A program made the translations under genes and the position numbers. From positions 1 to 62,460 of the IMG/VR virus record IMGVR_UViG_3300027852_000006: 62,460 nt of DNA. One strand, given 5' to 3'. The notes under the pieces are model-generated. The model was not told where the DNA came from. It did not search any database and saw only the letters and a program-made list of their open reading frames with translations. Origin of the DNA: a virus. Below, in pieces: positions 1-62,460 of the stretch; positions within the stretch are counted from its first letter, which is position 1, and every line of letters starts with the position of its first letter.

Positions 1-119
1 CACAGATATATTTTGACTTGCTACATTCTCGGCAATGTTGAAAGCTAGCACGGACTTGCCCATGCTAGGGCGACCAGCGACAACGATCATCTCGCCAGAA
101 TGCAAGCCGCCGGTTATCT
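1..119. repeat. Terminal direct repeat, left copy
   Basis: Bases 1-119 are identical to 62342-62460. The repeat lies inside the helicase gene, which reads in frame through the join. This is what a circular or circularly permuted genome looks like after assembly, rather than a biological terminal repeat. Confidence 0.95.
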
Positions 120-18899: not shown

Positions 18900-19496
18900 A
18901 TGGGTAAACCAACAACAGGTGGGAAAAAAACCAAGGGTCGGCTTACGGCAGCTAATAAAAAGGCCTTTTTGCGTGCGTATCGCAAGACCGGCAATATAAC
19001 CAGTTCAGCTAAATCAGCCAAAATATGCAACACTTCCTTTTATAATATGGCCAAAAGGGACGAAGCATTTGCTGCCGATTGTGCTGCGGCTTTGGACGAA
19101 TACGCCGACTCATTGGAATTGGAAGCCGATAGACGGGCACGGGAAGGGGTAGAGGACCCTGTTTTCTATCAAGGCCAGCAGGTGGCCACCAGGCTCAAGT
19201 ATTCGGATTCTCTGCTGGCTTTATTGTTATGTGCCAATAGACCGGCCAAATTCGCAAGGAATCAGCAGCAGCAGGTGGTTGTCGGTGGCGAGGTGCAGCA
19301 TATCCACAAGCTCGAGCCAGAGGCACAGCGTCGGCAGGCAATGGAGATGGGTGAGCGTATGTCTGCATTGGGCTTATTGGATAAGCAAGACAGTGGATTG
19401 TTTGGCGGGCCGAAGGTGATAACGGAACCGGAACCAGTAGCGGTAGAGGTGGCAGCAACAGAACCGGCAGAGGAATCGGTAATAAAAGATGACTAA
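18900..19496 (+). CDS. terS: Terminase small subunit
   Basis: 198 residues. An N-terminal basic stretch and helix-turn-helix (FLRAYRKTGNITSSAKSAKI, NTSFYNMAKRDEAF) recognise packaging DNA; the middle (DEYADSLELEADRRA, then ATRLKYSDSLLALLLCANRP) is the conserved oligomerisation region of this TerS group. The C-terminal tail is acidic and low-complexity. It overlaps the large subunit by 8 bp. The start ATG at 18900 has no good Shine-Dalgarno sequence but is preceded by a repeated TTTAGGTA motif. Confidence 0.88.
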   Translation: MGKPTTGGKKTKGRLTAANKKAFLRAYRKTGNITSSAKSAKICNTSFYNMAKRDEAFAADCAAALDEYADSLELEADRRAREGVEDPVFYQGQQVATRLKYSDSLLALLLCANRPAKFARNQQQQVVVGGEVQHIHKLEPEAQRRQAMEMGERMSALGLLDKQDSGLFGGPKVITEPEPVAVEVAATEPAEESVIKDD

Positions 19497-21276
19497 TACT
19501 ATGTTGGCAGATGCTAGTCCATTACCACAAGACGTATGTGATGACCTTGCAAGACTTCGTCAGACTGTCCCTGCGTTCTGGATTGAGGACCATTGTAAGA
19601 TTGTCAGTAAAAGCGGCGAGCTTATTCCGCTGGCGTACAATGAAAGTCAGTGCCATACGGACCGGATTATCGGTGAAATGGAACTGGCTAAGATGCCGGT
19701 CAGGGTTATCCACCTCAAAGCTCGTCAGTTGGGTGAGACTACCAGGGGATGTGCCAGAATTTACAATAACGCTTGTACTCTCACGAACCGCAGATGTTTA
19801 ATAAGTGCTCACGACAGTGACAGTTCGATCAACATTTTCCGTAAGATTCAGTTATTTCAGGAGTGCAATCCGGAGAAAATAGCACATAAGTACAGTTCTC
19901 GCAAGGAGTTGACATTCAGTTCTGCCAACAATAGTTCAAGTATCTTGGTTGAGACTGCTGGTAAGGAGAAACTGGGTCGTGGTAGTACATTCGATGACTT
20001 TCACGGCTCTGAGGTAGCATTCTGGGACAATGCTGGCACGACCATGTTGTCAGTAAATCAGTGCATTCCGGGTATGCCTGGCACGATGTCGATTTTAGAG
20101 TCGACTGCAAATGGTGTTGGCGGTTATTTCTACGAAACATACAGGAAAGCCAAAAAGGCCAAATGTGACATTGACAATAAGGCGATGGTGATTCCTGAAC
20201 CTGACAAGCAGGATTGGAACGGTTATTACCGGGTGTTTAATCCATGGTTTGTATGCAGTGAATACAGGTCGGTGGTACCGAGTGATTTTGTCAGGTCTCG
20301 TGACGAGCAGCTTTTGGTTGATAGATACGGACTTGACAACGAGCAGTTGCAATGGCGACGCAAGGTGATATCTAGCGAGTGCAATGGTGACGGTGACTTA
20401 TTCAGGCAAGAATATCCATCTGACGACAGTGAAGCGTTTTTGGTTTCTGGTCGTGGGGTATTCGATTCGTTCATAATCAAGTCGATGGTTGACAATTGCA
20501 GGCCTGCTAAGCATATTGGTCAGATGGGCGGTCCGCAGGAATGTCCTGAATTTGACGAATACAACATGAAGTGGTTAGAGGTTTGGCAGTTACCATCGGT
20601 TAATAAGGATGATATATACGCTATTGGCGTTGACACATCGGAGGGGTTGGACCCTGAGCAGAGCAATAATCCTGACGCTCATAGTGCTCATGTTATTCAC
20701 GTCAATTCGGCTCGTGTGGTTGCCAAGATAAGTGGTCGATTTGACCCGGACATTTTCGGTGAACAGTTGGATTTGCTTGGTCGCTGGTATAATTGTGCAT
20801 TGCTTGGCGTTGAGGTGAATAATACAAGTGGTGGCAGTGTTCGCAGTATATTAAAGCGTTTGTGTTATCCCAATTTGTATTACAGGGAGATACTTACCAA
20901 GGAAATCAACACTGAGACTGACACAATTGGGTGGTATACTGACAAGGTAAGTCGTGGCATACTTGTGACTGACGGCACTAAGATGGTACGTGAGAGGTCG
21001 TTATATATACCATCTATACAGACCATATATCAGATGCAACAGTGGATTTTTGACAAGAACGGTCGGGCCACTCATACTGTTGGTGAGCATGACGACGATG
21101 TAATCAGTTTACTGATTTCATGGCAGATGGCAGCCATAGCGACTATTGTTGGAGCCAGACAGATAGTGGATACTACCGGAGAATACGCTGACGGTAGCAA
21201 TAGTGACGGTGTTCGTTTCACCTCTGACATGGTGGTTGGCGGTCATGAGTCACCTATGAGTTACCTTGACGAATAG
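19489..21276 (+). CDS. terL: Terminase large subunit (packaging ATPase and nuclease)
   Basis: 595 residues. ATPase: Walker A-like KARQLGET at about residues 77-84 (the lysine-first variant common in TerL) and the GSEVAFW segment near 173 in the Walker B/C-motif region. Nuclease: RNase H-like fold with GVDTSEG (about 380), LGVEVNN (about 440) and HDDDV (about 535) supplying acidic residues. It forms the motor on the portal and cuts concatemers. Together with the 693-residue portal it defines the head module. Confidence 0.92.
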   Translation: MTNTMLADASPLPQDVCDDLARLRQTVPAFWIEDHCKIVSKSGELIPLAYNESQCHTDRIIGEMELAKMPVRVIHLKARQLGETTRGCARIYNNACTLTNRRCLISAHDSDSSINIFRKIQLFQECNPEKIAHKYSSRKELTFSSANNSSSILVETAGKEKLGRGSTFDDFHGSEVAFWDNAGTTMLSVNQCIPGMPGTMSILESTANGVGGYFYETYRKAKKAKCDIDNKAMVIPEPDKQDWNGYYRVFNPWFVCSEYRSVVPSDFVRSRDEQLLVDRYGLDNEQLQWRRKVISSECNGDGDLFRQEYPSDDSEAFLVSGRGVFDSFIIKSMVDNCRPAKHIGQMGGPQECPEFDEYNMKWLEVWQLPSVNKDDIYAIGVDTSEGLDPEQSNNPDAHSAHVIHVNSARVVAKISGRFDPDIFGEQLDLLGRWYNCALLGVEVNNTSGGSVRSILKRLCYPNLYYREILTKEINTETDTIGWYTDKVSRGILVTDGTKMVRERSLYIPSIQTIYQMQQWIFDKNGRATHTVGEHDDDVISLLISWQMAAIATIVGARQIVDTTGEYADGSNSDGVRFTSDMVVGGHESPMSYLDE

Positions 21277-26112: not shown

Positions 26113-28194
26113 ATGAGTAAAAAGAGCAAAAAAAAGGCTTATAATCAGGATATTAAGCTCAACTGTAAAATTGACAGCATGGTGTCCGTTGGTCGTAAGC
26201 GTGTCCAGCAATTTGCTGATATGAACCGGTTGGGTGTTCGGTATATTTATGGCGATCAGATAAGCAAGAAACGTAAAAAGAACTGGGATTATCCGGTAAT
26301 CAATCGTTGTTATGCTGACATGACTCAAGAGATAGCGATATTAACTGCTAATAATCCTCGAATAGAAGTTTTACCAAGAGAAGATGGTGATATTGATGTA
26401 GCCAAGAATGCTGGAATTGCATTGAAGGGCTATTGGTCTGATGTACTCAAGATGCGGATAAAAATCATTCAGGCCGAATATGATTGTCATATAAATGGGG
26501 TAATGATAGCTAAATGGTTTTACGAGCCTAAATCTAAGTGGAATCATAAAAAAGCCGATCAAACGGGTGATGGATGGGAAGGCGAAATCAATGTAAACAT
26601 TGTGCGACCATGTTATTTTGGTTGTGACCCTGACGTTGAGTTAGCTGTTGAGATACCCACTAAGGCAAGATTTATTTTCACTGAACGCTGGGTGGATAAG
26701 CGATGGGCGGCTCATCGTTGGCCTAAATACGCCAAGTATTTGCAGGATTGTGGTGAAATAGACAAAGAGGGCAACTTTATAAGTGATGAAATAGAGGTTG
26801 ATGATACAGGTGGCGGAATAGGTGCCGACCAGATTGGTTTTGACCAGTCAACTAACGATTGGAATGGCAAAGAAAGTGATAATCTTAGCGAAGAACAATT
26901 ACAAAAAAGGCTAGCCAATGTGATATTGGGGGTGAATGATAGCGGTAAATCTGATGATTCTTCGTCAAATAATATGTCAGTAAGAGTTCAGGAGATATAT
27001 TTTCGGGATTATACCACAAAAACTGTTGAGTCATTGAAAAGTGACTGGCCTGCTGGTCAAGGTGAAGCTGAACACATATATCAACAGGATGACGACCCAA
27101 CTTATTATGATTCTACCAAGCCTAAATATGACGAAAATGACAACACTGTTGGGCATGAAGCATTTACTGGTGATTGGCCACAGAAGGAGATAAGGCCGGA
27201 ATATCAAGAACCGTTATATCCTACTGGCAGATTTGTCATCAGGTTGGGTGGTGATGTTATTGTTGAAGATAGGGCATGGGAATATGATAATTGGCCGTTT
27301 GCGGTAGCTCCATATTATCTATTGCCTCATATATGGCAGGGCGTCAATTGCGTAGAGCTTTCCCGTGGGTTCCAAGACTGGATGAATACAATTGCCAGTC
27401 ATCTGACTAATTACATCAAGTATTTTTCTGATCCTCACATATGGGTGGAAGAGGAAGCGTTAGTTAGGGACAGTGACAAGAAAAAACAAACTTTTCCTAA
27501 TTGGGCTGGTTCTATTGTACGATTCGCCAGGGGCAAGATAGGCCGTGCTATTCGACATGAACCACCTTCATTGCCACCAACATTATTTCAGATATTTGAA
27601 TTATTTAGAAGTTCTGACCAAGATTTGAAGGGTGTGCATGATGTAACCCAAGGCAAAGCGTCCACAGGAAAAAACACATTGGGCGAAATGGATATGCTCA
27701 ATCGCAATTCACGCCAGAGGCTTGCCTTGCAAGGTGCTTTTTTAGATGTATTCTTGCATCAGATTAACACCGGTATATTAGAGTTGATGCAAAGGCATTT
27801 AGACCCCGGCAAATGGATAAGATGGACTGGCGATAATGCTGATTCGGCAAAATCTTCTATTCAGTGGACGCAGGAAATGGTAGACTCTGAATTTGATGTG
27901 ATATTGGAGCCAGTTTCTACGCTTCCATACGACGAGGAACGCGAGTCAGGTAAATATAAGATGGCTTTAGATGTGGTCGGCCCGGCTATGCTGGAAGATT
28001 TTCTAAAGAAATTAAAGATTCAGAACGTACCTAAAATTATGGCTAACCATGAAATTGTTGGTCCATTGACTCAACTATTGGAAATGGCTAAACAAAGTGG
28101 CGTGGGACCTGAACAGTTACTTATTGCTGTAAAAGCTCAATTGGATCAGGTTAAGATTATGACAGAAAAAGGAGAAACTGATGGTATCGAATAA
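26113..28194 (+). CDS. Portal protein (P22-like size class)
   Basis: 693 residues. NRLGVRYIYGDQISKKRKKN, then NRCYADMTQEIAILTANNPR is the typical portal opening; ECDCHINGV-type wing segments, RFVIRLGGDVIVEDRAWEYD, then FPNWAGSIVRF and DVTQGKASTGKNTLGEMDML (the crown/tunnel region of P22-type portals) follow. It forms the dodecameric DNA entry ring and docks TerL. The C-terminal helices are short compared with P22 (no barrel), so the particle may differ. Confidence 0.85.
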   Translation: MSKKSKKKAYNQDIKLNCKIDSMVSVGRKRVQQFADMNRLGVRYIYGDQISKKRKKNWDYPVINRCYADMTQEIAILTANNPRIEVLPREDGDIDVAKNAGIALKGYWSDVLKMRIKIIQAEYDCHINGVMIAKWFYEPKSKWNHKKADQTGDGWEGEINVNIVRPCYFGCDPDVELAVEIPTKARFIFTERWVDKRWAAHRWPKYAKYLQDCGEIDKEGNFISDEIEVDDTGGGIGADQIGFDQSTNDWNGKESDNLSEEQLQKRLANVILGVNDSGKSDDSSSNNMSVRVQEIYFRDYTTKTVESLKSDWPAGQGEAEHIYQQDDDPTYYDSTKPKYDENDNTVGHEAFTGDWPQKEIRPEYQEPLYPTGRFVIRLGGDVIVEDRAWEYDNWPFAVAPYYLLPHIWQGVNCVELSRGFQDWMNTIASHLTNYIKYFSDPHIWVEEEALVRDSDKKKQTFPNWAGSIVRFARGKIGRAIRHEPPSLPPTLFQIFELFRSSDQDLKGVHDVTQGKASTGKNTLGEMDMLNRNSRQRLALQGAFLDVFLHQINTGILELMQRHLDPGKWIRWTGDNADSAKSSIQWTQEMVDSEFDVILEPVSTLPYDEERESGKYKMALDVVGPAMLEDFLKKLKIQNVPKIMANHEIVGPLTQLLEMAKQSGVGPEQLLIAVKAQLDQVKIMTEKGETDGIE

Positions 28195-28917: not shown

Positions 28918-28940
28918 TCGCAAAAATGAAAGGATATAAA

Positions 28941-29747
28941 ATGTCTGACAAAGAAAAAGCATCTGAAGTTTTGGATCAAAAAAATGATGATGCAGGAGAT
29001 GGTGTATTAGAAGATGGCAACGTAATCGGTGATGGTGCAAAAGAAGTTGAATCTGATATTCCAGAAGCTAACTCTTCGGATGGCGACTGGGACAAGCAGC
29101 GGCAATTTCGCGATGAACTTTCAGCGGCCAATAAACGTCAGCTACAAGCCGAGCAACACATCAAAGAGTTGACCGACAAAGCTGACGCGGCCCAATCGCA
29201 GTTGGAAGAAATTAAAAGAGAAAATGCCAACAACGACGATCCTGACCTTGACGAATATGATGATATGCAAAAGCATGTCAAGAATATGACTAGCAAGTTA
29301 AGTGATCTGGAAGGACAAGTCGTAGATTCTCGTACAAAAGCTATTGAGGCTCAATCTCAATTAACTGAACTTCAAAATCAGATAATTGACAGGGAAGCCA
29401 GGGCTGAAGGCACAAGGCTGCTTAATCAGGAAATCAAAAACAATGAGAAGCGATTGGGCACCACCAAACATACCAATAAGATTTTGGATTTGGTTAATAA
29501 AGAATACGATGACAATCAAATACATCTAATGCCAGACAAACCACGAAAGGCGTGGATACAAAATACGTTAAAATTGCGGTTCACTGAAGCTGCTGAAAAA
29601 GCAGGTTCTTCTACCGCTAAAACTAAAAACGCCAATGCTCCAGTAGACACTGGTTCTGGTGGTAGCGGTCCTCCTGACGCTGAGATTACTGAAGGCAACA
29701 TAAATGATGTTGTTGCTCAAATGAAAGCCAAGTATGAGGGCGGCTAA
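28941..29747 (+). CDS. Scaffolding protein
   Basis: 268 residues from the ATG at 28941 (AAAGGAT site; an ATG at 28926 precedes it). Acidic N-terminus, a long coiled coil (residues about 55-150: KRQLQAEQHIKELTDKADAA... LSDLEGQVVDS) and a short C-terminal tail, the standard layout of head scaffolds. Directly upstream of the major capsid gene. It would be lost from the maturing head; no protease gene is near. Confidence 0.8.
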   Translation: MSDKEKASEVLDQKNDDAGDGVLEDGNVIGDGAKEVESDIPEANSSDGDWDKQRQFRDELSAANKRQLQAEQHIKELTDKADAAQSQLEEIKRENANNDDPDLDEYDDMQKHVKNMTSKLSDLEGQVVDSRTKAIEAQSQLTELQNQIIDREARAEGTRLLNQEIKNNEKRLGTTKHTNKILDLVNKEYDDNQIHLMPDKPRKAWIQNTLKLRFTEAAEKAGSSTAKTKNANAPVDTGSGGSGPPDAEITEGNINDVVAQMKAKYEGG

Positions 29748-36341: not shown

Positions 36342-37034
36342 ATGGCTCTTAATTTCACAGAACTTGGGACAGAGTTGCAAGCTGAACTTGGCAAAACTGG
36401 CGACACTTCTCTTATTACAACCACAAGGGTTGGAAGATGGATTAACCAGTCATTGATAGATATTATTTATCAATGGCCCGGTTTGCGTGATGTGAATGTT
36501 TTGGATAAACATACATGGCAATGTCAAAGTGATACGTATGAATATGATGTAAAGGATTTTATTGATAAGCCGATAGCTCATATTATAAAGATCAGGTATG
36601 TTGACACAACGAATAGTAATTATCGTCAGATAGAGCCATTTACTGGTGGGCTGGATCAATGGGATGCCCAATATCCTTATATTCCTAATTTAAGCACTGG
36701 TATTCCGACGTGTTATTGCAGACGTGGTAATACAGTCGAGTTGGCTCCGATGCCTGGAAGTGACCAGGACTTAGTTCCTATCTGGATAGAATACACTTAT
36801 TTGCCGCGGGCATTGTCTGGGACCGACACTCCTGTTTTAACTAATTTTGATGAATGTTTAATTCAATGGGGCAAGTCTTATGCGATGCGGCTATTAGGTA
36901 AAACCAACGAAGATACTGCTATGTTGATGGCAGCTAACGAGCAAAAACAATATGCCATGCAATTAGTAGGTGATCGAGTAAAAGGTGAAAGGGATTGGGA
37001 TTACATGGACCAGATTCCTTACAATGGTCCGTAA
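36342..37034 (+). CDS. Head-to-tail connector / adaptor protein
   Basis: 230 residues. N-terminal helices with TTTRVGRWINQSLIDI, then a beta insertion (VRYVDTTNSNYRQIEPFTGG) and C-terminal helices (CLIQWGKSYAMRLLG, ANEQKQYAMQLVGDRV): the alpha-helical plan of podovirus adaptor proteins (gp4/gp11-type). It would ring the portal underside. Confidence 0.65.
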   Translation: MALNFTELGTELQAELGKTGDTSLITTTRVGRWINQSLIDIIYQWPGLRDVNVLDKHTWQCQSDTYEYDVKDFIDKPIAHIIKIRYVDTTNSNYRQIEPFTGGLDQWDAQYPYIPNLSTGIPTCYCRRGNTVELAPMPGSDQDLVPIWIEYTYLPRALSGTDTPVLTNFDECLIQWGKSYAMRLLGKTNEDTAMLMAANEQKQYAMQLVGDRVKGERDWDYMDQIPYNGP

Positions 37035-37291: not shown

Positions 37292-37690
37292 ATGGCAGGG
37301 ACAGCTACCGTTAGAATAATGGCAGCGATAACTGATTTAGGTCAGGTAGCACCATTATCAACGACATATACAGTAAGTGGAGTGGATGAATATGCAGGTC
37401 CTTTTTATGAAGAACTCGCCGCTACAACTACAGTCGAGGTGAGCAGTGGACAAATTGATACAGTAACAGGAATGTATATTAAATTAGTATCTGGGGGGAC
37501 AACTGCGGCAACTGGATTATCAATTGATATAGCCGCTGCTTCTGACTGGACTACGGGAGACATGGTTTTGGTGTCCGGTCAATCAATCTTCTTTGTGCCT
37601 GTTTACACAGCAGGCGATGAAACCTATATTAAAAACCTGAATAGCTCGGCAGCAACGATACAATATCTTGTTTTTGGTGATAGTACCTGA
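37292..37690 (+). CDS. Virion structural protein, small
   Basis: 132 residues, beta-rich with an N-terminal MAGTATVRIMAAITDL and VEVSSGQIDTVTGMYIKLVS. Its TGA overlaps the ATG of the next gene. Likely tail or neck component by position. Confidence 0.5.
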   Translation: MAGTATVRIMAAITDLGQVAPLSTTYTVSGVDEYAGPFYEELAATTTVEVSSGQIDTVTGMYIKLVSGGTTAATGLSIDIAAASDWTTGDMVLVSGQSIFFVPVYTAGDETYIKNLNSSAATIQYLVFGDST

Positions 37691-39582
37691 TGCCTGCTGT
37701 AAAACCTATTGTAATACCAGGAATCTTTGGCGGTCTTAATAGCGGTTCTCCCAGAGAACTTATCAGTCCGATTGAATCTCCGTCGATAACAAATTTTATA
37801 GTTAAAGACGGCGTATTACAGAAACGAACAGGTTATACTGATAATTCAGGGGCAATAAGTACTAGCTCTGCTACTCCGAGTGCGACTATCACTGGGACAG
37901 GCAGTGCCAGCCCAACTACAACAGGCACACCGAGTGCTACGACAACAGGTACACCAAGTGCCACTACAACGGGCACGCCGTCTGCTTCATCAGGTCAATC
38001 TGACTCGATTACACAATCAGCTACCCAATCAATTACGCAGTCGGCTACCCAATCTATCACACAGTCGGCAACTTCATCTTTAAGTACAACATCTAGTGCG
38101 ACTCAGTCTATTACCGCTACGGCAAGTGCGACAGGATCGGTATCAGGTTCGGTAGGTGCTACGCTTGCCAAGTTTTTTCATGGTCATCACTATCAGGACG
38201 GCGTATCTGGTGATAAACGGTTCTGGTTATTTGGTGAGGATGTTTTATATAAAGATGGTATAGATGATATGTGGCACTCTGGGGCTGGGACTAATGACTT
38301 TCTAACAAATAGCGCTGAAGATTATTATTTTACTACAACAGAGATTGTCGAGTTAGACGATTATAAAAACTATATGATTGTTAATCAGTCGGATACCAAG
38401 CGTATTGGCGGTACGTTCCGAAAAGTATGTTATTCAAGTAGTCCTACATCACCATTGGTTATACTTGCCGGTGGTGATGGTTATAATGGCACCGGCACTG
38501 ATCATTATTGCAAACGGGTAATAAGTTATGGTGACCATTTGCATTTACTTCATACAAAAGAACATCTTGGCGGTGAATGGCTGGATATGTTCCAACGCCA
38601 CAGATGGAGTAATCTTGCCCATTTTACTGCTACCGCCGATTGGAATGATGTTGCTACAGCGGGAGCAGGATACAAAGACTTGAAAACAGATTTTGGGTCT
38701 ATAATGAATGGCGAAGTTTTAGTAGATACTCTTTATGATTATCTGGAAGGTGCCATTTATGCGTGTTATAGAACTGGAAGTAGCACTGATCCATTTCATT
38801 TTGAGCCAATGCTGGCTGGATTAGGATTATATTCGCCTCGTCTTTTAGCAAGTAATGGCGAGTCTCATTTTTTCGTTGGTAGCGATCATAATATATATCA
38901 GTATTATGGTGGTAGGAATAAAGTGCCAATTGGCGATAAGATAAAAACTGAATTTTTCGACAATATCAATAATACTCAAAGTAGTGGTTATGCTAGAGCG
39001 GATCGGTCATGGGCTTTTGTTTTGCGTGATATTGAAGCTGTGATATTTGCCATACCAACTGGTAGTGGTAATACTGATCCAACATTGTTTTATGTTTATT
39101 TTTGGCGTGATGGTCGTTGGGATAAATGGGACTACATTGATACTATTTGTGGAATGGGTAATTATGAACGACCATCAGCAATGAGTGTAAACGATTTGCC
39201 GATATTTTCTGATAGCAATGGTTGTATTTATCAATACGATTATTCGTCAACCGATGATGACGGTATAGCTATAGACGCGACAGTAGAGACTAAAGATTTT
39301 GTAATTGATTTGAAAAATGAATATCGGGATATGAATGTTTGGTTTGAGGCTAGTGGCGATGGAGCATCTTCGTCAGTTGACGTGTCGGTTAGTGTTGATT
39401 CTGGAAATACTTTCAGCACTGCTGTTACTAAGACAATAACGAGTACTTGGGATTTGTATAAAGCGAATTTCAATGTTTCTGGTTATGTGATGCGATTCAA
39501 ATTCCGTAATAATACAGTAGGGAAAAAATTGTTGTTGGGTAGAATAAGATCGGAACTCGTGAAAAGCAACGAAAAGGGTTAG
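37690..39582 (+). CDS. Tail structural protein with S/T-rich linker
   Basis: 630 residues. N-terminal IVIPGIFGGLNSGSPRELIS, then residues about 55-155 of low-complexity TGTPSATTTGTPSATT and SATQSITQ repeats, then a globular beta region (HHYQDGVSGDKRFWLFGEDV ... GMGNYERPSAMSVNDL, beta-propeller-like) and a C-terminal beta domain (VFEASGDGASSSVDVSVSV-like). The same linker type is in copy 2 of the decoration family. Likely a tail or receptor-proximal subunit. Confidence 0.6.
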   Translation: MPAVKPIVIPGIFGGLNSGSPRELISPIESPSITNFIVKDGVLQKRTGYTDNSGAISTSSATPSATITGTGSASPTTTGTPSATTTGTPSATTTGTPSASSGQSDSITQSATQSITQSATQSITQSATSSLSTTSSATQSITATASATGSVSGSVGATLAKFFHGHHYQDGVSGDKRFWLFGEDVLYKDGIDDMWHSGAGTNDFLTNSAEDYYFTTTEIVELDDYKNYMIVNQSDTKRIGGTFRKVCYSSSPTSPLVILAGGDGYNGTGTDHYCKRVISYGDHLHLLHTKEHLGGEWLDMFQRHRWSNLAHFTATADWNDVATAGAGYKDLKTDFGSIMNGEVLVDTLYDYLEGAIYACYRTGSSTDPFHFEPMLAGLGLYSPRLLASNGESHFFVGSDHNIYQYYGGRNKVPIGDKIKTEFFDNINNTQSSGYARADRSWAFVLRDIEAVIFAIPTGSGNTDPTLFYVYFWRDGRWDKWDYIDTICGMGNYERPSAMSVNDLPIFSDSNGCIYQYDYSSTDDDGIAIDATVETKDFVIDLKNEYRDMNVWFEASGDGASSSVDVSVSVDSGNTFSTAVTKTITSTWDLYKANFNVSGYVMRFKFRNNTVGKKLLLGRIRSELVKSNEKG

Positions 39583-51092: not shown

Positions 51093-51560
51093 TCAGTTTT
51101 TCAATGATGTCTTGTAGTATTTTTCGATTAGTTCATTGTCTATTGTAAGCCCCTTTGGCAAAACACCTATTAACATGTATGGTTCAATGGTAACCCACCA
51201 TGGTGTCCCTTTTTGATGTGTCAATGCGGACAGTTGTAGTCCAAAATAGTTTTTGTATCCATCCCAAATGGCCTCCAGAAATTTTATTCCATCGCAGTCA
51301 TCTGGTGGCACACAATATTCTATTGGTGCAGTGATTGGGTTGTTGCGATGTTTTTTAAGACTCTGGTATATAGATTCTATTGCAGGACCATATTTCCATG
51401 CTTCGGCGCGCTCTTCAAACAAAGGCTTACTCAACAACGCTAAATGCCAACCATGGGCAATATAAGTCAATTTATTGCCTTGTATGGGTGTTATAGGCAC
51501 CTTTTCTTCAATTCCCTTTCTTATAAAGAAATTTACGATTTGTTGTGGGTCATAATTCAT
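51093..51560 (-). CDS. Panacea (DUF4065) domain protein, antitoxin-like
   Basis: 155 residues from the ATG at 51560 (GAGGG site, one base after the upstream stop). IQGNKLTYIAHGWHLALLSK, FEERAEAWKYGPAIESIYQS and YFGLQLSALTHQKGTPW are the hallmarks of the Panacea/GepA-SocA domain, a small fold that neutralises many different toxins. The neighbouring upstream gene (zincin-like) overlaps its control region, so the two may form one unit. It is the last gene of the leftward transcript. Confidence 0.8.
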   Translation of the reverse strand: MNYDPQQIVNFFIRKGIEEKVPITPIQGNKLTYIAHGWHLALLSKPLFEERAEAWKYGPAIESIYQSLKKHRNNPITAPIEYCVPPDDCDGIKFLEAIWDGYKNYFGLQLSALTHQKGTPWWVTIEPYMLIGVLPKGLTIDNELIEKYYKTSLKN

Positions 51561-51561
51561 G

Positions 51562-51924
51562 TTAGCCCTCACATTTCATTTGTTTTTCTAACACCCTAAC
51601 TAATCGTTCATTTTCTTCGTTTATCTCATTTTCTGTTGTGTAGCGACTTTCTGCTAACCACGATATTTTACTTAAGAATAAGTGCATTGCCTCGTGCCTT
51701 GCGTGTGACTCTGGTGTACAGTACTCGCCTACATCGCTTTTGTCTATTTCAGTACAAAGGGTGACAACCGCAAGTTTTGCTGGCTCACTTACATGTATTG
51801 ATGCGTAGGCTCCGTTAATTGGTTCATGGCGATAAGTAATGCGGTATCCATTCAAACCCAACTTGTCAATATACCGATCAAACTCACGCTTGAATCTGTT
51901 AAAATGAGTCTTTGTTATACGCAT
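51562..51924 (-). CDS. Zincin-like (HExxH) protein, possible Panacea partner
   Basis: 120 residues from the ATG at 51924 (AAAGGAAAATTCGATG). HARHEAMHLFL supplies an HExxH zinc-protease signature, and the downstream AESRYTTENEINEENERL offers a Glu as third ligand, like small phage zincins of unknown target. A further-upstream start at 51945 is possible. Next to the Panacea gene, it could be a toxin or an unrelated peptidase. Confidence 0.6.
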   Translation of the reverse strand: MRITKTHFNRFKREFDRYIDKLGLNGYRITYRHEPINGAYASIHVSEPAKLAVVTLCTEIDKSDVGEYCTPESHARHEAMHLFLSKISWLAESRYTTENEINEENERLVRVLEKQMKCEG

Positions 51925-52009
51925 CGAATTTTCCTTTCTAATCATGGCATGTAACTTACTGCGAAATAAGGTGTTATGTGAATTGCAAATTTTTGTTGCA
52001 TCGGCAAGC

Positions 52010-52015
52010 TATAAT
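52010..52015 (+). promoter_or_regulatory. Perfect -10 box of a possible small-RNA promoter
   Basis: TATAAT preceded by GC, with only a weak -35 17 bp upstream. It lies in the 250-bp gap between the zincin and methyltransferase genes. Confidence 0.45.
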
Positions 52016-52021
52016 TCGTAT

Positions 52022-52102
52022 ACTTCAATGTACTCGGTGGCCATTGGTTTCCCATGTAAGAGCCGAAGGAGATGGACTCGCCTTTGAGCGGGTCTTTTTT
52101 TT
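52022..52102 (+). ncRNA. Candidate 80-nt small RNA
   Basis: Starts about 7 bases after TATAAT and ends in the strong terminator at 52075-52102. It opposes the direction of both flanking genes and has no reading frame of its own. A regulatory or decoy RNA is possible; expression is unproven. Confidence 0.4.
52075..52102 (+). terminator. Rightward intrinsic terminator
   Basis: GACTCGC, loop CTTTGA, GCGGGTC (one G-U pair), then eight Ts. No rightward protein gene precedes it within 1 kb, which is why an RNA is suspected; it could also stop late transcripts running on from 51064. Confidence 0.75.
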
Positions 52103-52123
52103 AACAAATCCTATCTTTATATG

Positions 52124-52189
52124 TCCTCTGGGTATATAAATACTTTATTTCTTTTGTTTCTCCCTGATTATGTCAGATATACCTACGAC
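52124..52189. repeat. 66-bp direct repeat, copy A (at the 3' end of the methyltransferase gene)
   Basis: About 80 percent identical to 53314-53379. In copy B it is the end of the gene 53335-53520 (GIADIIKEKQKK and stop); copy A keeps the same codons (GISDIIREKQKK, stop) but out of frame with the methyltransferase, whose last codons it overlaps. Confidence 0.7.
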
Positions 52190-53309
52190 CACGGCAGTGC
52201 TGGTTGTCTTTCTTGCTAAACTTCTTGCCATACTCCTCAATATGTTTAATGAAACTTTTCCCTATAACTTCGCCGAGTTTTACGGGTACTGCATTGCCAA
52301 TCAATCGACCGATAGTTTTGCGTTGAATAGGATATCCTGTTCGCACAAATTTGTAAGCCTTTGGAAAGCCCTGCAGAATTGCTCCTTCCCTGAGTGATAT
52401 CGCTCTATTTTGCTTTGGATGTCCGAAACGACCGTTGCCAAAACCATAAAACTGAGTCGTGATTGTAGGTGCTACTTCATCCCATTGCATACGACCATAT
52501 ACACCAGAATAAGTCTTGCCTGTTTTTTTCTTATGGCATTGTGCAACTAATTTGAAATTCCAATCTCGCCATGTACCTCCAGGTTTGGAAGCCTTGATGC
52601 GTTTCAAATTTATTGGTGACAACATACTTGACTGATGTATCGGATCCTTTTCGTAAACACCACCGGCTACTATCGGTGGTAATTTACCAATAGCGTCACG
52701 AACGGTTTTGAGCTTTGTTTTTTTCTGACGAGAAAGCATTTGTATTGGTCCTAATTTGGATGCTAACAGTACAAGCCTTCGCCTATGTTGAGGAATGCCA
52801 TAATTAGAACATCTGACAATCTGATAATTCACTTCGTAGCCTTCTTGCTTCAGATCCGAAATGAATCCATCAAATATATCATATTTTACCAAGCCTGGGA
52901 CATTTTCCATCGCGACAAGTTCGGGGGATAGTTCTTTTATGAGCCGGAAAAACCCTATCAACAACCACCAGCGGTGATCTTCAAAATTGGCCTTAGCAAT
53001 TTTTTGATTGTAGGACGAAAACGTTTGGCAAGGAGCACATCCAGCCAATAAACGTATTGTTCTTGGAACATATTTAGATTCAATTTCTTCCAATTCCACA
53101 TCATGAACGGATTTCAAAAGAAATTCAGAATTATTGTTTGCTGTATACGGATATTCACACGCAGGATCAATGTCAACTCCAAGCCTTACATCAATTCCTG
53201 CTTTTTCTAAACCCTTAGTTAAGCCACCCACACCACAGAATAAATCTATAGCAGATATTTTTGTTTTAGTCTCAAAGGAGCTCTCTATTTTTCTTTTGCG
53301 ATTTACCAT
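52173..53309 (-). CDS. DNA (cytosine-5-) methyltransferase
   Basis: 378 residues with all core motifs in order: I ISAIDLFCGVGGLTKGL, IV LLAGCAPCQTFSS (catalytic Cys), VI VAMENVPGLV, VIII SNYGIPQHRRRLVLL, IX TITTQFYGFGNGRF, X IGNAVPVKLGEV. The 150-residue target-recognition part between VIII and IX sets the unknown target. It probably protects phage DNA from host restriction, alongside the Lar-like protein. It is flanked by 66-bp direct repeats, so it may have been inserted. AGAAGGAAAT start. Confidence 0.93.
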   Translation of the reverse strand: MVNRKRKIESSFETKTKISAIDLFCGVGGLTKGLEKAGIDVRLGVDIDPACEYPYTANNNSEFLLKSVHDVELEEIESKYVPRTIRLLAGCAPCQTFSSYNQKIAKANFEDHRWWLLIGFFRLIKELSPELVAMENVPGLVKYDIFDGFISDLKQEGYEVNYQIVRCSNYGIPQHRRRLVLLASKLGPIQMLSRQKKTKLKTVRDAIGKLPPIVAGGVYEKDPIHQSSMLSPINLKRIKASKPGGTWRDWNFKLVAQCHKKKTGKTYSGVYGRMQWDEVAPTITTQFYGFGNGRFGHPKQNRAISLREGAILQGFPKAYKFVRTGYPIQRKTIGRLIGNAVPVKLGEVIGKSFIKHIEEYGKKFSKKDNQHCRGRRYI

Positions 53310-53313
53310 ATTT

Positions 53314-53379
53314 CCTTCTGGGCATCTAAGTATTTTATTTTTTTTGTTTTTCTTTGATTATGTCAGCTATACCTACGAC
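53314..53379. repeat. 66-bp direct repeat, copy B
   Basis: Partner of 52124-52189. It begins 4 bp upstream of the methyltransferase start codon on the coding strand and contains the stop of the previous gene. Confidence 0.7.
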
Positions 53380-53520
53380 TCTTTCCGGCCAATAGCCATG
53401 TATTTCCTGTTGTTCAAACAACTGGCCGCTGGGTGTCCGCAGCCATTGCCTCCTTACGTTGCATACTTTCGTATCCAATCCCCATTGATCTATATCTTCT
53501 CGGCTATATGGTAAACTCAT
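53335..53520 (-). CDS. Small hypothetical protein
   Basis: 61 residues, unrecognised (YSREDIDQWGLDTKVCNVRR, QWLRTPSGQLFEQQEIHGYW). Its 3' end lies in the 66-bp repeat. Overlaps the next upstream gene by 4 bp. Confidence 0.55.
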   Translation of the reverse strand: MSLPYSREDIDQWGLDTKVCNVRRQWLRTPSGQLFEQQEIHGYWPERVVGIADIIKEKQKK

Positions 53521-53777
53521 AATTGCTCTATTTTTTGTCGTTTTTTTTGTTTGCTATGATGCCTTCTGGCAAAATTTATTACTGTTTTTGTTAAGTACGA
53601 TTGAATGTTGCGTATATGACTGCGATCCATGGACATTACGCTAACAAAAGCATCTTGGATAGCATCTTCGGCTGACCCACTGTCTCCCCTTAGTATTTTT
53701 GTTGCAATCATCAACAATTTATCGTGCATATCTCTATATATATCACCTAGATCATTCAATATGTTTGTCCAAACCAA
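53517..53777 (-). CDS. Truncated ECF-type sigma factor (region 2 only)
   Basis: 86 residues. IYRDMHDKLLMIATKILRGD, SAEDAIQDAFVSVMSMDRS, IRNIQSYLTKTVINFARRHH follow the region 2 pattern of ECF sigma factors (core-binding helix, then DAxQDxF-like motif, then L-x-x-xIxxNxxRR). The region 4 half that contacts -35 is missing. It may redirect host RNA polymerase with another protein, or act as an anti-host decoy. Confidence 0.6.
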   Translation of the reverse strand: MVWTNILNDLGDIYRDMHDKLLMIATKILRGDSGSAEDAIQDAFVSVMSMDRSHIRNIQSYLTKTVINFARRHHSKQKKRQKIEQL

Positions 53778-54037
53778 GCGTTAATAGCCATATTATAGCC
53801 TTGATCAGTTAGGCTAAAAGCGACTATTTTATTATTTTGTTTGTGTATTTTTATGGTTCCTTTTGTCTTGCCATTGATACGTGATACAACTTGCATAAGG
53901 TTTTCTTGGGTTATATTGTCCATCATGGTTTTTATTTCTTCAATAGGCGTTGGTTTTTTGCTCAATAATGTTAATAGTTGCTGGCCTAAAGTTAAAAATT
54001 GGCCCATTGTTTTGTCGTATTGTCGTGGTGTTTTCAT
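53756..54037 (-). CDS. Winged-helix-like small protein
   Basis: 93 residues, overlapping the sigma-like gene by 22 bp. LTLLSKKPTPIEEIKTMMDN, then LMQVVSRINGKTKGTIKIHK and NNKIVAFSLTDQGYNMAIN read as helix-helix-helix-wing. If so it could supply DNA contact for the region-2-only sigma protein; this is inference. Confidence 0.5.
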   Translation of the reverse strand: MKTPRQYDKTMGQFLTLGQQLLTLLSKKPTPIEEIKTMMDNITQENLMQVVSRINGKTKGTIKIHKQNNKIVAFSLTDQGYNMAINAWFGQTY

Positions 54038-54441
54038 TGATTCTTATTTGCCTCACGAATAGCGACGATAGTTTGTCTAATACTCCAGCCATCCTCAATA
54101 GCCTCAACTTGAATTGCGTTATGCTCGCCCGCACAAGCATCATTGATTCCCTTAATACGATCACGCTCGTCAATTCTAGCCTTCGCGATGATGGCAGCCT
54201 TATCGATTACTTCTGTTTTCTTGTGATTCTTCATTCTTTTCCCTTTCCTTTTGTCTGGCAAGGAATACCAATCCTTGAATGCGTGGATTTTCCAGCCATC
54301 TTTGCTTGCATTTTTGATAATTTCTATGGTCAGATCCGTATCGCGTTCGGTATTAGTGCCAAACATATACTTTGTGATGTCTCTAATATGAGCCGGGTCT
54401 GGATTCAGATAGGCCAATAGCTTTGTGGTTAGTTTTATCAT
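54034..54441 (-). CDS. Hypothetical protein, N-terminal HTH-like, C-terminal ERxRIKGI tail
   Basis: 135 residues. IKLTTKLLAYLNPDPAHIRD, ITKYMFGTNT resembles a small HTH; the tail ARIDERDRIKGINDACAGEH is similar to tails found at the end of some phage prohead proteases. It lies immediately downstream of the protease-like gene. Confidence 0.5.
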   Translation of the reverse strand: MIKLTTKLLAYLNPDPAHIRDITKYMFGTNTERDTDLTIEIIKNASKDGWKIHAFKDWYSLPDKRKGKRMKNHKKTEVIDKAAIIAKARIDERDRIKGINDACAGEHNAIQVEAIEDGWSIRQTIVAIREANKNQ

Positions 54442-54462
54442 GGTGAGATTCCTTTTTTTGTT

Positions 54463-54930
54463 TTATGAGCCGCTAGTCAGGCTGAATATTGTCCTGACTG
54501 GCGTCTGCTCGGTGTTGGTGGTATTGATGTCCACGATGGAAATTTCCTGCGATGTCGATTGTTTAATGTGATAGAATGGTGCTTTGTGTTTGATGCCATT
54601 TATTTCACGAGTTCCCTTTCTGACAAGTTCGATGTTGATAGATTCCGTATCAATAGAAACTTGCCATCTAGCCGTAGACACGGTTTGTTTAATAACATCC
54701 TTAGTAAATCCCTTGGTAATGCTAAAATCAACTTCAAGCATCAACGAATCGTTTTCGATTATGACGGATGCCACGCCCAGGGCACGTTTCTTACGTTTTT
54801 TATGATTGATTGAAAGTCCCGTATTACAGCGACCTTGCAATCCTTCCAAGTCTACCACGACTGGACGTTCCCTGTTGGGAAAGTTTGTTTTGCCACCATC
54901 GTAAATCTGAATTTTTTCGGTTACACTCAT
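54463..54930 (-). CDS. Prohead-protease-like protein
   Basis: 155 residues. The segment ARWQVSIDTESINIELVRKG, then REINGIKHKAPFYHIKQSTS and QEISIVDINTT matches the conserved core of a phage prohead-protease family (W-Q-x-S-I, then xNG, then P-x-Y/H-I, then EISxV). That family normally accompanies HK97-like capsid genes. Here it sits by the DUF5309 capsid gene, away from the main head genes. Active-site state uncertain. Confidence 0.6.
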   Translation of the reverse strand: MSVTEKIQIYDGGKTNFPNRERPVVVDLEGLQGRCNTGLSINHKKRKKRALGVASVIIENDSLMLEVDFSITKGFTKDVIKQTVSTARWQVSIDTESINIELVRKGTREINGIKHKAPFYHIKQSTSQEISIVDINTTNTEQTPVRTIFSLTSGS

Positions 54931-54953
54931 TGTGTTATCTCCTTGCGAGTAGT

Positions 54954-55301
54954 TTATCTTTTGCCCTTCCTAAACCTGCTGATTAGCCAGATTTGATAAC
55001 TTTCTTTTCCATCAGTTTTCCCGTTGGCAATCTCCAGCAGAACATCTGCATGGCATGGCCGATCTAGCGGACACCAACAAGCTAAGTTTTTTCCTTTTAA
55101 TTCTTTTATGATTTCCTCTGTTGATGGCGGTTTCGGATAATCCATAAGGTCTCCCGCCAGATATTTTTTGTATAAATCAACTTGAGCGTATGGATTAGCC
55201 CAACGGCTCGGCCTGCCGACATAAACAACTGGCAGCCCATTAGGTGATTCTAGCCTAGCGCCTTTACGGCGACTGCGTTGTAGTCTGACTGGCTTTATCA
55301 T
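54954..55301 (-). CDS. DUF4326 domain protein
   Basis: 115 residues from the ATG at 55301 (GGAGAG site). KPVRLQRSRRKGARLESPNG, VYVGRPSRWANPYA and GKNLACWCPLDRPCHADVLL are the complete DUF4326 signature, frequent in phages and of unknown chemistry; the C-x-C-P...CHAD part may bind a metal. A longer start (55421) would overlap the capsid-like gene. Confidence 0.8.
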   Translation of the reverse strand: MIKPVRLQRSRRKGARLESPNGLPVVYVGRPSRWANPYAQVDLYKKYLAGDLMDYPKPPSTEEIIKELKGKNLACWCPLDRPCHADVLLEIANGKTDGKESYQIWLISRFRKGKR

Positions 55302-55336
55302 TTTTTCTCTCCGCGTCATAGTAGTTTTTGGACATT

Positions 55337-56491
55337 TTAGCCGGTAGCCAAACCTCTGATATACCCATGCGCTTCTTCGTTTCGTATTTCCAGAGTATAT
55401 TCTCCGATCAGTTCCCCACATTCGTAATCTCCGTTGGACGTCAGAGGTTTGAAGTGGAAACTTCGTCCTCTTAACGGCGTCACCGACAATCTTGTGCTAT
55501 CAAGCAATAGTACTGCATCTTGCGGCATCCATCGCGACACGATAACCTTGCAAAGTCCGAAGTCACTTTCATAGAGGATCATCAAATCTCTGTATTTTTG
55601 GTCTTCGGCCCCGAATTTTCGGTTGCTGCTCATAAAGTCATTGATTTGTCGTTTTTGGTATTCATTAACAACGATGAGGTTGGTATTGCCGCTGCTATTT
55701 TCCCATATATGTCTCAGCGCGTAATTGATTTTTGCTTCGTCAAGCGTTGTCCCGCTCGGAAATCCAGCATCTCCTGTCTGAAACTGATTTGTTGTAATGC
55801 TTTGGAAAATACCTCTCAAAGTTCTTCGTACCGTATCCGACCCTTGTGGATTACTGGTTGGTGATCCACCATTTATGATGGTATTTTCCAGGTCTCTCAA
55901 CAGTTCTCTGAGTCGTTCCTGTTTCTGGTAGTCCAGTTCATCTGATACCGCCATTTGTCGTGCCATCATGGCACTTCCTGAGACTTTTATCGCTGCGGTG
56001 AATATCTGTGTATAGTTTCCTTTTCTGGTTCGGTTGGTGAATCTCACTGTTGGTTTGCCACTGCCTTCAAGAGCGGCATTCCCCAGAATGTTGATGACCA
56101 GGTTGTCCTTGAGGTCCTCTGCCGTTGTGCCTCCATACCCCCGCACCACGGTTAGCGTGTCACTGTTGATGTTAGTCACCATCATTAGTTCTTTGCTGCT
56201 CTCAACTTGGATTTGATCACCCACTTGGAATCTGCTGCCGTTATCCACAACGAACTCAGTATCTTTCGCCGGATCAGTGAAAGTACTATCATTGATAGCA
56301 TCTTTGTTGGGCAACAGGTGGTCCTCCAGCCATTCATGGTATGTGTTCGTTGCTGGGCGTAGTGGGTCTTCTAGTATATCCAATAATGGCGTCTCATAGG
56401 GCGATACAATGTTTACTATGTCTGCCACATCTTCTGCTGTTCCCGGTAGACTTGTGTCTGCCGAGTATGTTGATTTTCCTGTAAAAGACAT
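55337..56491 (-). CDS. Second major capsid protein (DUF5309 / SU10-type)
   Basis: 384 residues. Opening DVADIVNIVSPYETPLLDIL, then NTYHEWLEDHLLPNKDAIND, an inserted beta domain with VRGYGGTTAEDL, then NRTRKGNYTQIFTAAIKVSG, DLENTIINGG, and the end SDFGLCKVIVSRWMPQDAVL ... GEYTLEIRNEEAHG. This is the full-length DUF5309 pattern, known in SU10-like phages as the HK97-fold coat protein. It lies on the early strand with a protease-like gene nearby, 25 kb from the scaffold/capsid operon. Confidence 0.8.
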   Translation of the reverse strand: MSFTGKSTYSADTSLPGTAEDVADIVNIVSPYETPLLDILEDPLRPATNTYHEWLEDHLLPNKDAINDSTFTDPAKDTEFVVDNGSRFQVGDQIQVESSKELMMVTNINSDTLTVVRGYGGTTAEDLKDNLVINILGNAALEGSGKPTVRFTNRTRKGNYTQIFTAAIKVSGSAMMARQMAVSDELDYQKQERLRELLRDLENTIINGGSPTSNPQGSDTVRRTLRGIFQSITTNQFQTGDAGFPSGTTLDEAKINYALRHIWENSSGNTNLIVVNEYQKRQINDFMSSNRKFGAEDQKYRDLMILYESDFGLCKVIVSRWMPQDAVLLLDSTRLSVTPLRGRSFHFKPLTSNGDYECGELIGEYTLEIRNEEAHGYIRGLATG

Positions 56492-56492: not shown

Positions 56493-56879
56493 TTAGATTT
56501 CCTTTCTTTTGTTTATGCAACATTTCTTAAACTTCTTTCCGCTGCCGCAAGGGCATGGTTGGTTTCGGCCAACAGCTTCTGTTTTTACAGAGACAAAACC
56601 TCTTTGCTTTGACTCCTCACGAGCCGCATCAATTGCGGCATCTAGTGAGCCATAAAAATCGCGTGTTTCTATCGTTTCTATTTTTTTTATTGCTTTCATT
56701 CTTGATACCTCCGTTTCCCACCACTCGCTTTCGCTGACAAAACCTTTTTGCTTTGATGCCTCACAAATTGCATCAATTGCCGCCGGTGAGTCAGCATATT
56801 TTTTCGCTGCGGCAATGCTTTCGCTCATTCTTTCGGCAAATGCTTTGGTGATTTCATCGCGTGTTTCTATTGTCTTCAT
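56493..56879 (-). CDS. SEC-C motif protein with internal duplication
   Basis: 128 residues. The C-terminus [18 protein letters not shown] is the SecA-type zinc motif (CxCxSGxxFKxCC). Before it two 40-residue units repeat: [11 protein letters not shown]...[13 protein letters not shown] and [14 protein letters not shown]...[11 protein letters not shown]. Role unknown; SEC-C proteins are often adaptors. Confidence 0.65.
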
Positions 56880-57487: not shown

Positions 57488-59257
57488 CTAAGTTAAAACG
57501 ACAGGCAATGGTTTTACGGATACCTTCTCCGCCGGAGCGATTACAACATCTCCCTGTTGATACCAGTTGGCCCCATTGCTGCTAATTGGATATTCCTTAA
57601 ACCAATCTGGTTTACGGAAATGCAATGCCTTTTCCACAGTATCACAATCGTCAAGCACACCCTCGATATGAATGATTTCATTTTCCGGCGTTGACAGTGA
57701 CGGGTTAATCATCTTTAACATGGTCCATGCGGTTTCACCACCAACATCAAGCTGTATTACTTCGTATTTGTGCCGAAAAACATCATCACCATTACTTATT
57801 AAGATATTTTGTTTATCCAACGTTTTCCCGCCCAGTTTGTAATATAACCGTTCGTAGCCGACTTTGCGGATAAACTCTCGGCGCACTTCATCGTTAGCTA
57901 TCTCTTTAATCATAGAGACATCAATTTGATCGCCAGGTGTTTCCGCGAGCCATTGGGGAACACGAACGCCATTCAATGACCACACTTTCACATACCCACC
58001 TGCGTATTCAATCGACGGTGAGCCGTCGGAATGTAGTTTGCCATCCACAAATTTAATGTGTGTCGGCTTTTGCGAAACAACACAGAAATCATCAAGCGGA
58101 TAAACCGGACCCAGATCACAACATTTTTTGAAATGGGAATAACCTTTTATGCCAGAGAAATCTATACCAACTACTTGCTCCATGTAGTCGAAAAAGGCAT
58201 ACCAGTTAGAAAAAAAGGAACCTTCAAAGTAAGGGAAGAAAAAATCTTTGAATTGATTCTTGACTTGCCCATTGGTTTGTTCCTTGATTTGACCTATAAC
58301 TTGATCCCAGACATGGCCCTCAACTTGACCCATGACTTGATTCCAGACATGGCCCTTGACTTGAGCCTTGACTTGATTCATGGCCTGAGTCTCGATCCGA
58401 GTCCTGACTTGAGTCAAGACTTGGTCTACGATCTGATTATAGACTTGAGCCCAGACTTGATCCACGGCCGTAGCCGCGACCTGAGGCCCAACTTGCTCTC
58501 TGGTCTGTTCCTTGACTTGAACTATGGCTTGATCCAAGAATTGGTCCCTGACATAATTCCTAAGCTGATCTCCGACCTGCTCTCTAACTTGAGCCTCGAT
58601 ATAAAACCAGACCTGAGCCCAGACTTGTTTATCAGCTTGATCTCCGACCTGATCCCAGACCTTATCCACGACTTGATTTTCAGCTTGAGCCTTAACTTGA
58701 TCGCCGACTTGGGCCCTGGCTTGATTCCAAATCTTAGGCCTGACCTTATCCACGACCTGGGCATGGACATGATCCCTGACTTGGGCCTCAACCTTCTCCC
58801 AGACATGATTGCAGACCCGAGCCTCAAACTGACTCTGGGAAAGGACCTTGGCCTGAAAATTAATCTGATCCCTGATATGATCCTCGGCCTGAGCCTTAAC
58901 TTGATCGCCGACTTGAGCTACAACCTGATTCTCGGCCCGTTCCCAGACCTGAGCCTTAACCTGATCCCAGACATGATCCATGACCTGTTCCTTGAAATAT
59001 CCTATGGACAGATCGTTTTTACCGGCCTGGCAATTAACCTGAGCACAAAGCATCACCGCCAAATACGCTTGCAACGGATCGTCCATCAGTAAAATTATCT
59101 GTGGAGGTTTCTTTTTCAGAACGTATTCATAGAAACCGTTAATCTTCGGTCTGACCTCCGATAGCTTAAGTCTATCTGTGGATAATCCGTTCTTTACCCA
59201 TTTGTCTGCATATATTGGCATTTGATCTTCTTGTTGTTTTGTAAGTTCGGTAATCAT
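57488..59257 (-). CDS. DUF6745 protein with large DQV-type repeat block
   Basis: 589 residues. N-terminal YADKWVKNGLSTDRL and PQIILLMDDPLQAYLAVMLC; residues about 100-340 consist of some 60 short units of the form D/A-Q-V-x (for example WDQVKAQVWERAENQVVAQV); then a conserved C-terminal half (YAFFDYMEQVVG, VVSQKPTHIKFVDGKLHSDG, VKVWSLNGVRVPQWL, then EVRREFIRKVGYERL) of the DUF6745 family. Family members elsewhere have similar variable repeat blocks. It is coupled to the next gene by a TAATG overlap. Function unknown. Confidence 0.8.
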   Translation of the reverse strand: MITELTKQQEDQMPIYADKWVKNGLSTDRLKLSEVRPKINGFYEYVLKKKPPQIILLMDDPLQAYLAVMLCAQVNCQAGKNDLSIGYFKEQVMDHVWDQVKAQVWERAENQVVAQVGDQVKAQAEDHIRDQINFQAKVLSQSQFEARVCNHVWEKVEAQVRDHVHAQVVDKVRPKIWNQARAQVGDQVKAQAENQVVDKVWDQVGDQADKQVWAQVWFYIEAQVREQVGDQLRNYVRDQFLDQAIVQVKEQTREQVGPQVAATAVDQVWAQVYNQIVDQVLTQVRTRIETQAMNQVKAQVKGHVWNQVMGQVEGHVWDQVIGQIKEQTNGQVKNQFKDFFFPYFEGSFFSNWYAFFDYMEQVVGIDFSGIKGYSHFKKCCDLGPVYPLDDFCVVSQKPTHIKFVDGKLHSDGSPSIEYAGGYVKVWSLNGVRVPQWLAETPGDQIDVSMIKEIANDEVRREFIRKVGYERLYYKLGGKTLDKQNILISNGDDVFRHKYEVIQLDVGGETAWTMLKMINPSLSTPENEIIHIEGVLDDCDTVEKALHFRKPDWFKEYPISSNGANWYQQGDVVIAPAEKVSVKPLPVVLT

Positions 59258-61720: not shown

Positions 61721-62460
61721 TTACTCCTTACTTGTGAATCTCATCGAGTTGCCTTCCCAGTCGAGTCGGACTTCGCCGGTCGGCCCAGACCTCTGTTTGG
61801 CCAAAACAATAATTCCCTCACCGGTCTTTTTGGTCTCGTCACGGATGTAATAATCCGGTCTGTAGAGCAACATAACCGTGTCGGCATCCTGTTCGATATT
61901 GCCAGATTCGCGTAGATCGGATAGCCTGGGCCGGTGGTTTTCTCGCGTCTCGGCTTCACGATTCAACTGGCAGACGACCATCACTGGTATCTTTAATTCA
62001 CGTGCCAAGAGTTTTAATTGCCGCGAACATTCGCCGACCTTTTCATATCGCTTTTTATCCCCAGGCAGGTCCATGAGTTGCATATAATCAACCACTATGA
62101 GCTTTATGTCGTGTGTTCGCTTTAGTGCCCTTGCTTGGCTTCGCAGGGATGTAGGCGTGAGCTTCGGCGTATCGTTAATCAACAGCGGCATCTGTGATAT
62201 TTCGTGAGCCGTTTCGTCAAGCGTGCGAATACCGTCATCATTGAGATAGCCCTTTTGCATCTGGTGCATACCAAGATTGCTATGGCGGGCGATAGACCGT
62301 TCGCCTAGCTGCAATTTTGACATCTCCAGCGAAAAAACTACCACAGATATATTTTGACTTGCTACATTCTCGGCAATGTTGAAAGCTAGCACGGACTTGC
62401 CCATGCTAGGGCGACCAGCGACAACGATCATCTCGCCAGAATGCAAGCCGCCGGTTATCT
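61721..62460 (-). CDS. dnaB: Replicative DnaB-type helicase, C-terminal part (continues from 1-678)
   Basis: Codes for the RecA-like ATPase domain of the 432-residue helicase: GRPSMGKS (P-loop), FSLEMSKLQLGERSIA (the H1a/SLEM segment), IKLIVVDYMQLMD (Walker B), VMVVCQLNREAETR and LRESGNIEQDADTVMLLYRP (the H4/arginine-finger region). Bases 62342-62460 duplicate 1-119. Ends with TAA at 61721, five bases before the initiator gene start. In the cell it unwinds DNA ahead of a host polymerase, as no phage polymerase is visible. Confidence 0.95.
   Translation of the reverse strand, partial: ITGGLHSGEMIVVAGRPSMGKSVLAFNIAENVASQNISVVVFSLEMSKLQLGERSIARHSNLGMHQMQKGYLNDDGIRTLDETAHEISQMPLLINDTPKLTPTSLRSQARALKRTHDIKLIVVDYMQLMDLPGDKKRYEKVGECSRQLKLLARELKIPVMVVCQLNREAETRENHRPRLSDLRESGNIEQDADTVMLLYRPDYYIRDETKKTGEGIIVLAKQRSGPTGEVRLDWEGNSMRFTSKE
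62342..62460. repeat. Terminal direct repeat, right copy
   Basis: Identical to 1-119; defines a unique circular length of 62,341 bp. Confidence 0.95.

Follow-up and report, generated by a model that had tools for sequence, protein, structure and literature searches.

A complete SU10-type major capsid protein gene of foreign origin in the early arm of a phage with its own, unrelated capsid protein

The early arm and the extra capsid gene

The window analysed here, the whole 62,460-nucleotide stretch of IMG/VR record IMGVR_UViG_3300027852_000006, begins and ends with the same 119 bases, and the two parts of dnaB join at this point. The identical ends and the joining of the dnaB halves indicate a complete genome of about 62.34 kb. 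Since the genome closes at this junction, the minus arm is continuous, running from 16.8 kb to position 1 and then from 62.46 kb to 51.09 kb, and it converges with the late plus arm at 51.08 kb. At the distal end of this early-strand arm lies a gene for a second, SU10-type major capsid protein (MCP), hereafter the extra MCP (Table 1).

Table 1. Coordinates of the extra MCP gene, its neighbours and the resident head genes in the window.
Feature	Position	Strand	Basis
Terminal direct repeat	1..119	.	Identical to 62342-62460; closes genome inside dnaB
Resident terminase large subunit (TerL)	19489..21276	+	PHROG 2
Resident portal, SU10 type	26113..28194	+	PF23899, PHROG 156
Resident scaffold-like coiled-coil protein	28926..29747	+	Position; homolog in L138 at 9197-9958
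Resident MCP, 377 aa	29782..30915	+	48% identity to syntenic L138 MCP; L108/L094 homologs in PHROG 9953
Resident SU10-type adaptor	36342..37034	+	PF24175
SocA/Panacea-domain protein, last minus-arm gene	51093..51572	-	PF13274, 60 bits
C5-cytosine DNA methyltransferase	52173..53309	-	PF00145, 191 bits
Sigma-70 region-2-only protein, 86 aa	53517..53777	-	PF04542, 33 bits
Hypothetical protein, same accessory run	54034..54441	-	ORF, without Pfam match
Protein originally called prohead-protease-like	54463..54930	-	Without S78, Pfam, PHROG or PDB support
DUF4326 protein, next gene downstream of extra MCP	54954..55421	-	PF14216, PHROG 464
Extra SU10-type (DUF5309) MCP, 384 aa, foreign	55337..56491	-	PF17236, PHROG 1328
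Small helical protein, C-terminal SEC-C zinc motif	56493..56879	-	PF02810

The original prediction had described this gene as a complete coat protein gene of the DUF5309/SU10 type, without stops, and both the completeness and the identity were confirmed. The ORF list gives an intact frame of 384 codons, and the product matches the Pfam SU10_MCP profile along its full length (279 bits, E 6e-83, residues 13-381, curated cut-off 24.1) as well as the PHROG family annotated as 'major head protein', with all SU10_MCP regions present. The profile of the family in turn matches the solved capsid chains 9in6, 9ny2 and 7z45, and from this we infer an HK97 fold for the extra MCP. The profile comparisons show the predicted product to be a full-length HK97-family capsid protein. 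The protein family is already known, and it is the placement and the retention of the gene that are unusual.

The extra MCP gene lies outside any head module, its neighbours being the SEC-C and DUF4326 genes, unassigned ORFs, the sigma region 2 gene and the C5-methyltransferase gene; the profile matches in Table 1 bear out the earlier description of a capsid gene mixed with DUF4326, sigma-like and methyltransferase genes. The stop codon of the SEC-C protein gene stands directly before the start of the extra MCP gene, with a spacing of 1 base, and an AAAGGA ribosome-binding site precedes the ATG, and the two genes probably share an operon. The DUF4326 protein may start at an ATG at about 55300. 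The SocA/Panacea protein is antitoxin-like and is without an evident toxin partner, and a 589-aa protein at 57488-59257 contains long coiled repeats of the VWDQV/AQVWEQV type and matches DUF6745.

The adjacent product of 54463-54930 had been called prohead-protease-like, and this assignment could not be confirmed. Searches of Pfam, PHROG, NCBIfam and PDB gave chance-level matches only, the Peptidase_S78 profile had zero matches in the whole window at E<=10, and no relatives were found in several collection scans. A His...WQ-x-SI...EIS pattern, seen by eye only, recalls S78 in its spacing; no homolog carrying it was found in the loci compared. No second portal or scaffold stands beside the extra MCP gene either, so the proposed second capsid module was not upheld; as the protease is unconfirmed, the locus is better described as a lone extra capsid gene.

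The resident head genes

The resident MCP had zero direct matches in Pfam and PHROG, and its family could be anchored only once a terminase-alignment scan had brought in the loci L108 and L094, whose counterparts match both the resident MCP and the PHROG 9953 family, 'major head protein'. A further scan yielded L138, in which the order TerL, portal, scaffold, MCP, next gene and adaptor is kept, and portal-scaffold-MCP synteny with the resident module was found in L138, L139, L140, L141 and L143. The synteny and the PHROG 9953-matching homologs therefore identify the gene following the scaffold as that of the resident MCP, in agreement with the original prediction that the phage already has a scaffold and a separate MCP. 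The resident MCP showed no similarity to the Mu gpT, cap_E, capsid_3 or SU10 types of related loci, and comparison of the extra with the resident MCP detected no sequence similarity, remote similarity included. AlphaFold models of the resident MCP were of low confidence, both with 6 sequences (pLDDT 34, pTM 0.38) and with a single sequence; a fold search with the low-confidence model returned phage capsids as the top PDB neighbours at E>0.1, which is suggestive at most.

Several other features of the late arm are recorded here. Two closely similar proteins of ~510 aa, without a family match, are encoded in tandem between TerL and portal (21778-23334 and 23394-24923). A 904-aa protein (33430-36144) is glycosyltransferase-like by sequence, with methyltransferase and ParB-like matches, and structural proteins at 37690-39582 and 32203-32994 contain Ser/Ala/Thr-rich repeat linkers (SATITGTGSASPTTTGTPSATTTG). 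In L140, the gene following the MCP gene, a homolog of window 30945-31553, is present in four tandem copies (11484-14202) and is perhaps a head-decoration or tail gene.

Loci with a related terminase, most of them also with a related portal, use SU10_MCP, Mu gpT/Phage_capsid_4, cap_E or Phage_capsid_3 (L011, L013, L015, L016, L018, L020, L034 and L067 compared with L009 and others), and from these comparisons MCP replacement seems to be frequent in this terminase lineage. In related podoviruses, group I introns divide the SU10_MCP genes into two or three ORFs; Rfam Intron_gpI gave 12 matches (57-97 bits) within or next to the MCP genes of 8 loci (L028, L031, L041, L044, L050, L053, L055 and L072).

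Relatives of the extra capsid protein and selection on its gene

The closest relatives of the extra MCP, found by a two-sequence alignment scan, are L149 with 70% identity and L144 with 63%. In a tree of 64 sequences the window copy is joined first by L149 (99/93) and next by L144 (100/100), and this group lies outside the SU10_MCPs of phages that share the resident TerL/portal type, so the extra MCP is foreign to the resident head genes; its inheritance from the resident head lineage is rejected by the same tree. The MCP gene of L149 sits in an integrase-bearing, prophage-like element, where it follows portal-like and scaffold-like genes; the contig also has DnaB and terminase small subunits, the match of the portal is limited to its C-terminal part, and no TerL was recognised on the contig. 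The window copy has the full-length family match in common with such ordinary SU10-type MCPs, but differs from them in standing outside a head module in a phage that already has an unrelated MCP. The other window genes had zero matches in L149 and L144, and the gene neighbours are not common to them. Plasmids and bacterial genome contigs were also searched, and neither MCP had a close relative among them.

L144 (IMG/VR 3300033145_000895) provides a second case. The ends of its contig overlap by 109 bases, so this contig is also complete, and its own head genes encode a portal of the P22 type, a scaffold-like protein and an MCP that matches Phage_capsid_3 (154 bits). As in the window phage, it has another MCP in the head module and its SU10_MCP gene lies among genes of nucleic-acid metabolism and methyltransferases: RecT and a PD-(D/E)XK exonuclease precede it, and DNA methyltransferases and a primosomal protein follow. 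Unlike the window phage, L144 has an unrelated genome with different neighbours, and its SU10_MCP gene is codirectional with the late genes and upstream of TerL. Two unrelated phages thus each carry their own MCP and an SU10-type MCP outside the head module. These are the only two cases of such placement found, and the tree does not discriminate between a single and a double origin of the arrangement. L144 shows that the spare MCP is not a one-off of this contig, and the parallel suggests a coat gene kept for a purpose rather than debris. The search in relatives that the original prediction called for was thus answered in part: this kind of extra MCP occurs in the unrelated L144 but is absent from the resident-type relatives searched, the records of which may be partial.

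As dS was saturated, codon-position and branch-specific counts were used instead of a formal dN/dS. With L144 as outgroup, the window-specific changes at the three codon positions number 39/32/85, and the amino-acid counts of the two branches are equal (37 for the window, 38 for L149). L149 and L144 have the same codon at 87 sites, and at these the window copy has 46 synonymous and 11 nonsynonymous changes, whereas 80% nonsynonymous changes are expected under neutrality; the binomial p of about 1e-22 for this count is overstated, because the sites were chosen as conserved, and under the equivalent choice of codons L149 has 41 synonymous and 12 nonsynonymous changes. The purifying-selection check proposed at the outset thus came out in favour of constraint, and the counts show MCP-like purifying selection as far as it can be read from codon changes, part of which could date from the donor lineage. 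In the alignment of the window MCP with that of L149, gaps occur at the ends only.

The third positions of the extra MCP gene (GC3 0.465, A 0.34, T 0.20) fit those of the minus-arm genes, and its codon usage is the most early-like among the 45 genes compared. GC3 is higher in the relatives, 0.635 in L149 and 0.713 in L144, and 57 of the 85 window-specific third-position changes are from G/C to A/T. This pattern fits a long residence under constraint, a donor of like composition being the alternative. At family-conserved columns the window copy matches 39/46 compared with 45/46 for L149 (p=0.06), a hint of slight relaxation, and its value lies at the median of the other family members. A remnant of another phage in the sense of recent debris, as one of the original readings had it, is nevertheless disfavoured: recent debris is unlikely because the ORF is intact and near-gapless against L149, it is under MCP-like constraint, it has early-strand codon usage and a second, unrelated case exists.

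Possible roles of a spare capsid protein

The retention of the extra MCP as an accessory gene is well supported. That it is an assembly artefact, with the DNA of another phage joined into the contig, is very improbable: the contig is metagenome-derived, but it closes on itself, the composition, strand asymmetry and codon usage of the extra MCP gene fit the flanking minus-strand genes, and its nearest relative is only 70% identical. A possibility of more weight, albeit one that we consider unlikely, is that the captured gene is now a functionless passenger, whose conservation reflects only its essential role as an MCP in the donor up to a fairly recent time. It is a lone gene whose neighbours are shared with neither L149 nor L144, the slight deficit at family-conserved columns would agree with loss of function, and it is missing from the partial relatives examined; on the other hand, its third positions match those of the early arm with few accompanying amino-acid changes, it probably shares an operon with the gene 1 base upstream and has a ribosome-binding site, and a second, unrelated phage keeps such a gene. 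In general, phage genomes shed useless DNA, which also speaks against a passenger.

The SU10-type protein could instead enter the particles of the phage itself, either building a second type of shell or contributing minority subunits, for example at the vertices, perhaps conditionally. The gene is intact and constrained, the resident portal and adaptor are of the SU10 type, and in several relatives such portals usually go together with SU10_MCP. We nevertheless regard an alternative or mosaic capsid as doubtful and place it below the passenger, since the two MCPs have no detectable sequence similarity and neither a second scaffold nor a confirmed protease adjoins the extra gene, which occupies the distal end of the opposite, early-type strand. 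L144, moreover, combines the same arrangement with a portal of the P22 type and another resident MCP, so a structural role common to both phages is less likely. The HK97 fold is common to encapsulins, and in both phages the gene lies among early nucleic-acid genes (methyltransferases, and in L144 RecT and the exonuclease), so that an encapsulin-like or DNA-protecting compartment, used early in infection and encoded next to DNA-modification and recombination genes, might also be envisaged; no cargo peptide or partner was identified, the sequence is still that of an ordinary SU10_MCP, and we give this early shell little credence.

As the most likely function of the extra MCP we tentatively favour interference with the head assembly of a competitor that uses the same capsid type, and we think that it ranks ahead of both the passenger and the alternative capsid. 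A working MCP gene would have been captured from a different phage lineage, long enough ago for early-strand codon composition to be acquired, and retained among the accessory genes that end the early arm, as a 'moron'. Its product, presumably made earlier than the phage's own head proteins or independently of them, and acting in trans, would fold and oligomerise as a capsid protein and would disturb the head assembly of competing phages or resident prophages with this capsid type (compare the prophage-like element of L149), either by co-assembly with the rival MCP or by titration of the rival scaffold or portal. The resident, unrelated MCP would be unaffected, and cross-assembly with self is unlikely because the resident scaffold and MCP belong to an unrelated family.

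Phage T4 has two related capsid subunits, gp23 and gp24, and this pair as well as 10A/10B of T7 resemble the present case in that one phage has more than one HK97-fold shell protein. These pairs, however, are co-assembling frameshift products or paralogs, whereas the two MCPs described here belong to unrelated families and are encoded 25 kb apart on opposite strands. The T7 products are likewise two related capsid subunits in one phage (PMC8785237). A parallel may be drawn to the capsid-interference proteins of phage satellites, namely TcaP of PLE and the redirection by SaPI, in which the protein of one element alters the head assembly of another phage (PMC10945586, PMC12409344). The satellite proteins are scaffolds or redirect capsid size (PMC10945586, PMC12409344), whereas here a complete foreign MCP is carried by a phage and would interfere. 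The literature searched contained no earlier example of a single phage with two unrelated MCPs, which is weak evidence given the many journals outside the search.

MCP genes are treated as a one-per-genome hallmark in the classification of tailed phages, and a phage that retains a second MCP, unrelated to the first, under MCP-like constraint and away from its head genes violates this assumption. It is possible, if still speculative, that phages more generally take up complete foreign MCP genes and retain them, in accessory or early regions, as weapons that act in trans and poison head assembly in rival phages or prophages of that capsid type; if true, such genes would form a new class devoted to competition between phages, represented here in two unrelated genomes. 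The finding leads to the testable claim that capsid proteins can be kept as accessory genes and may serve as weapons between phages.
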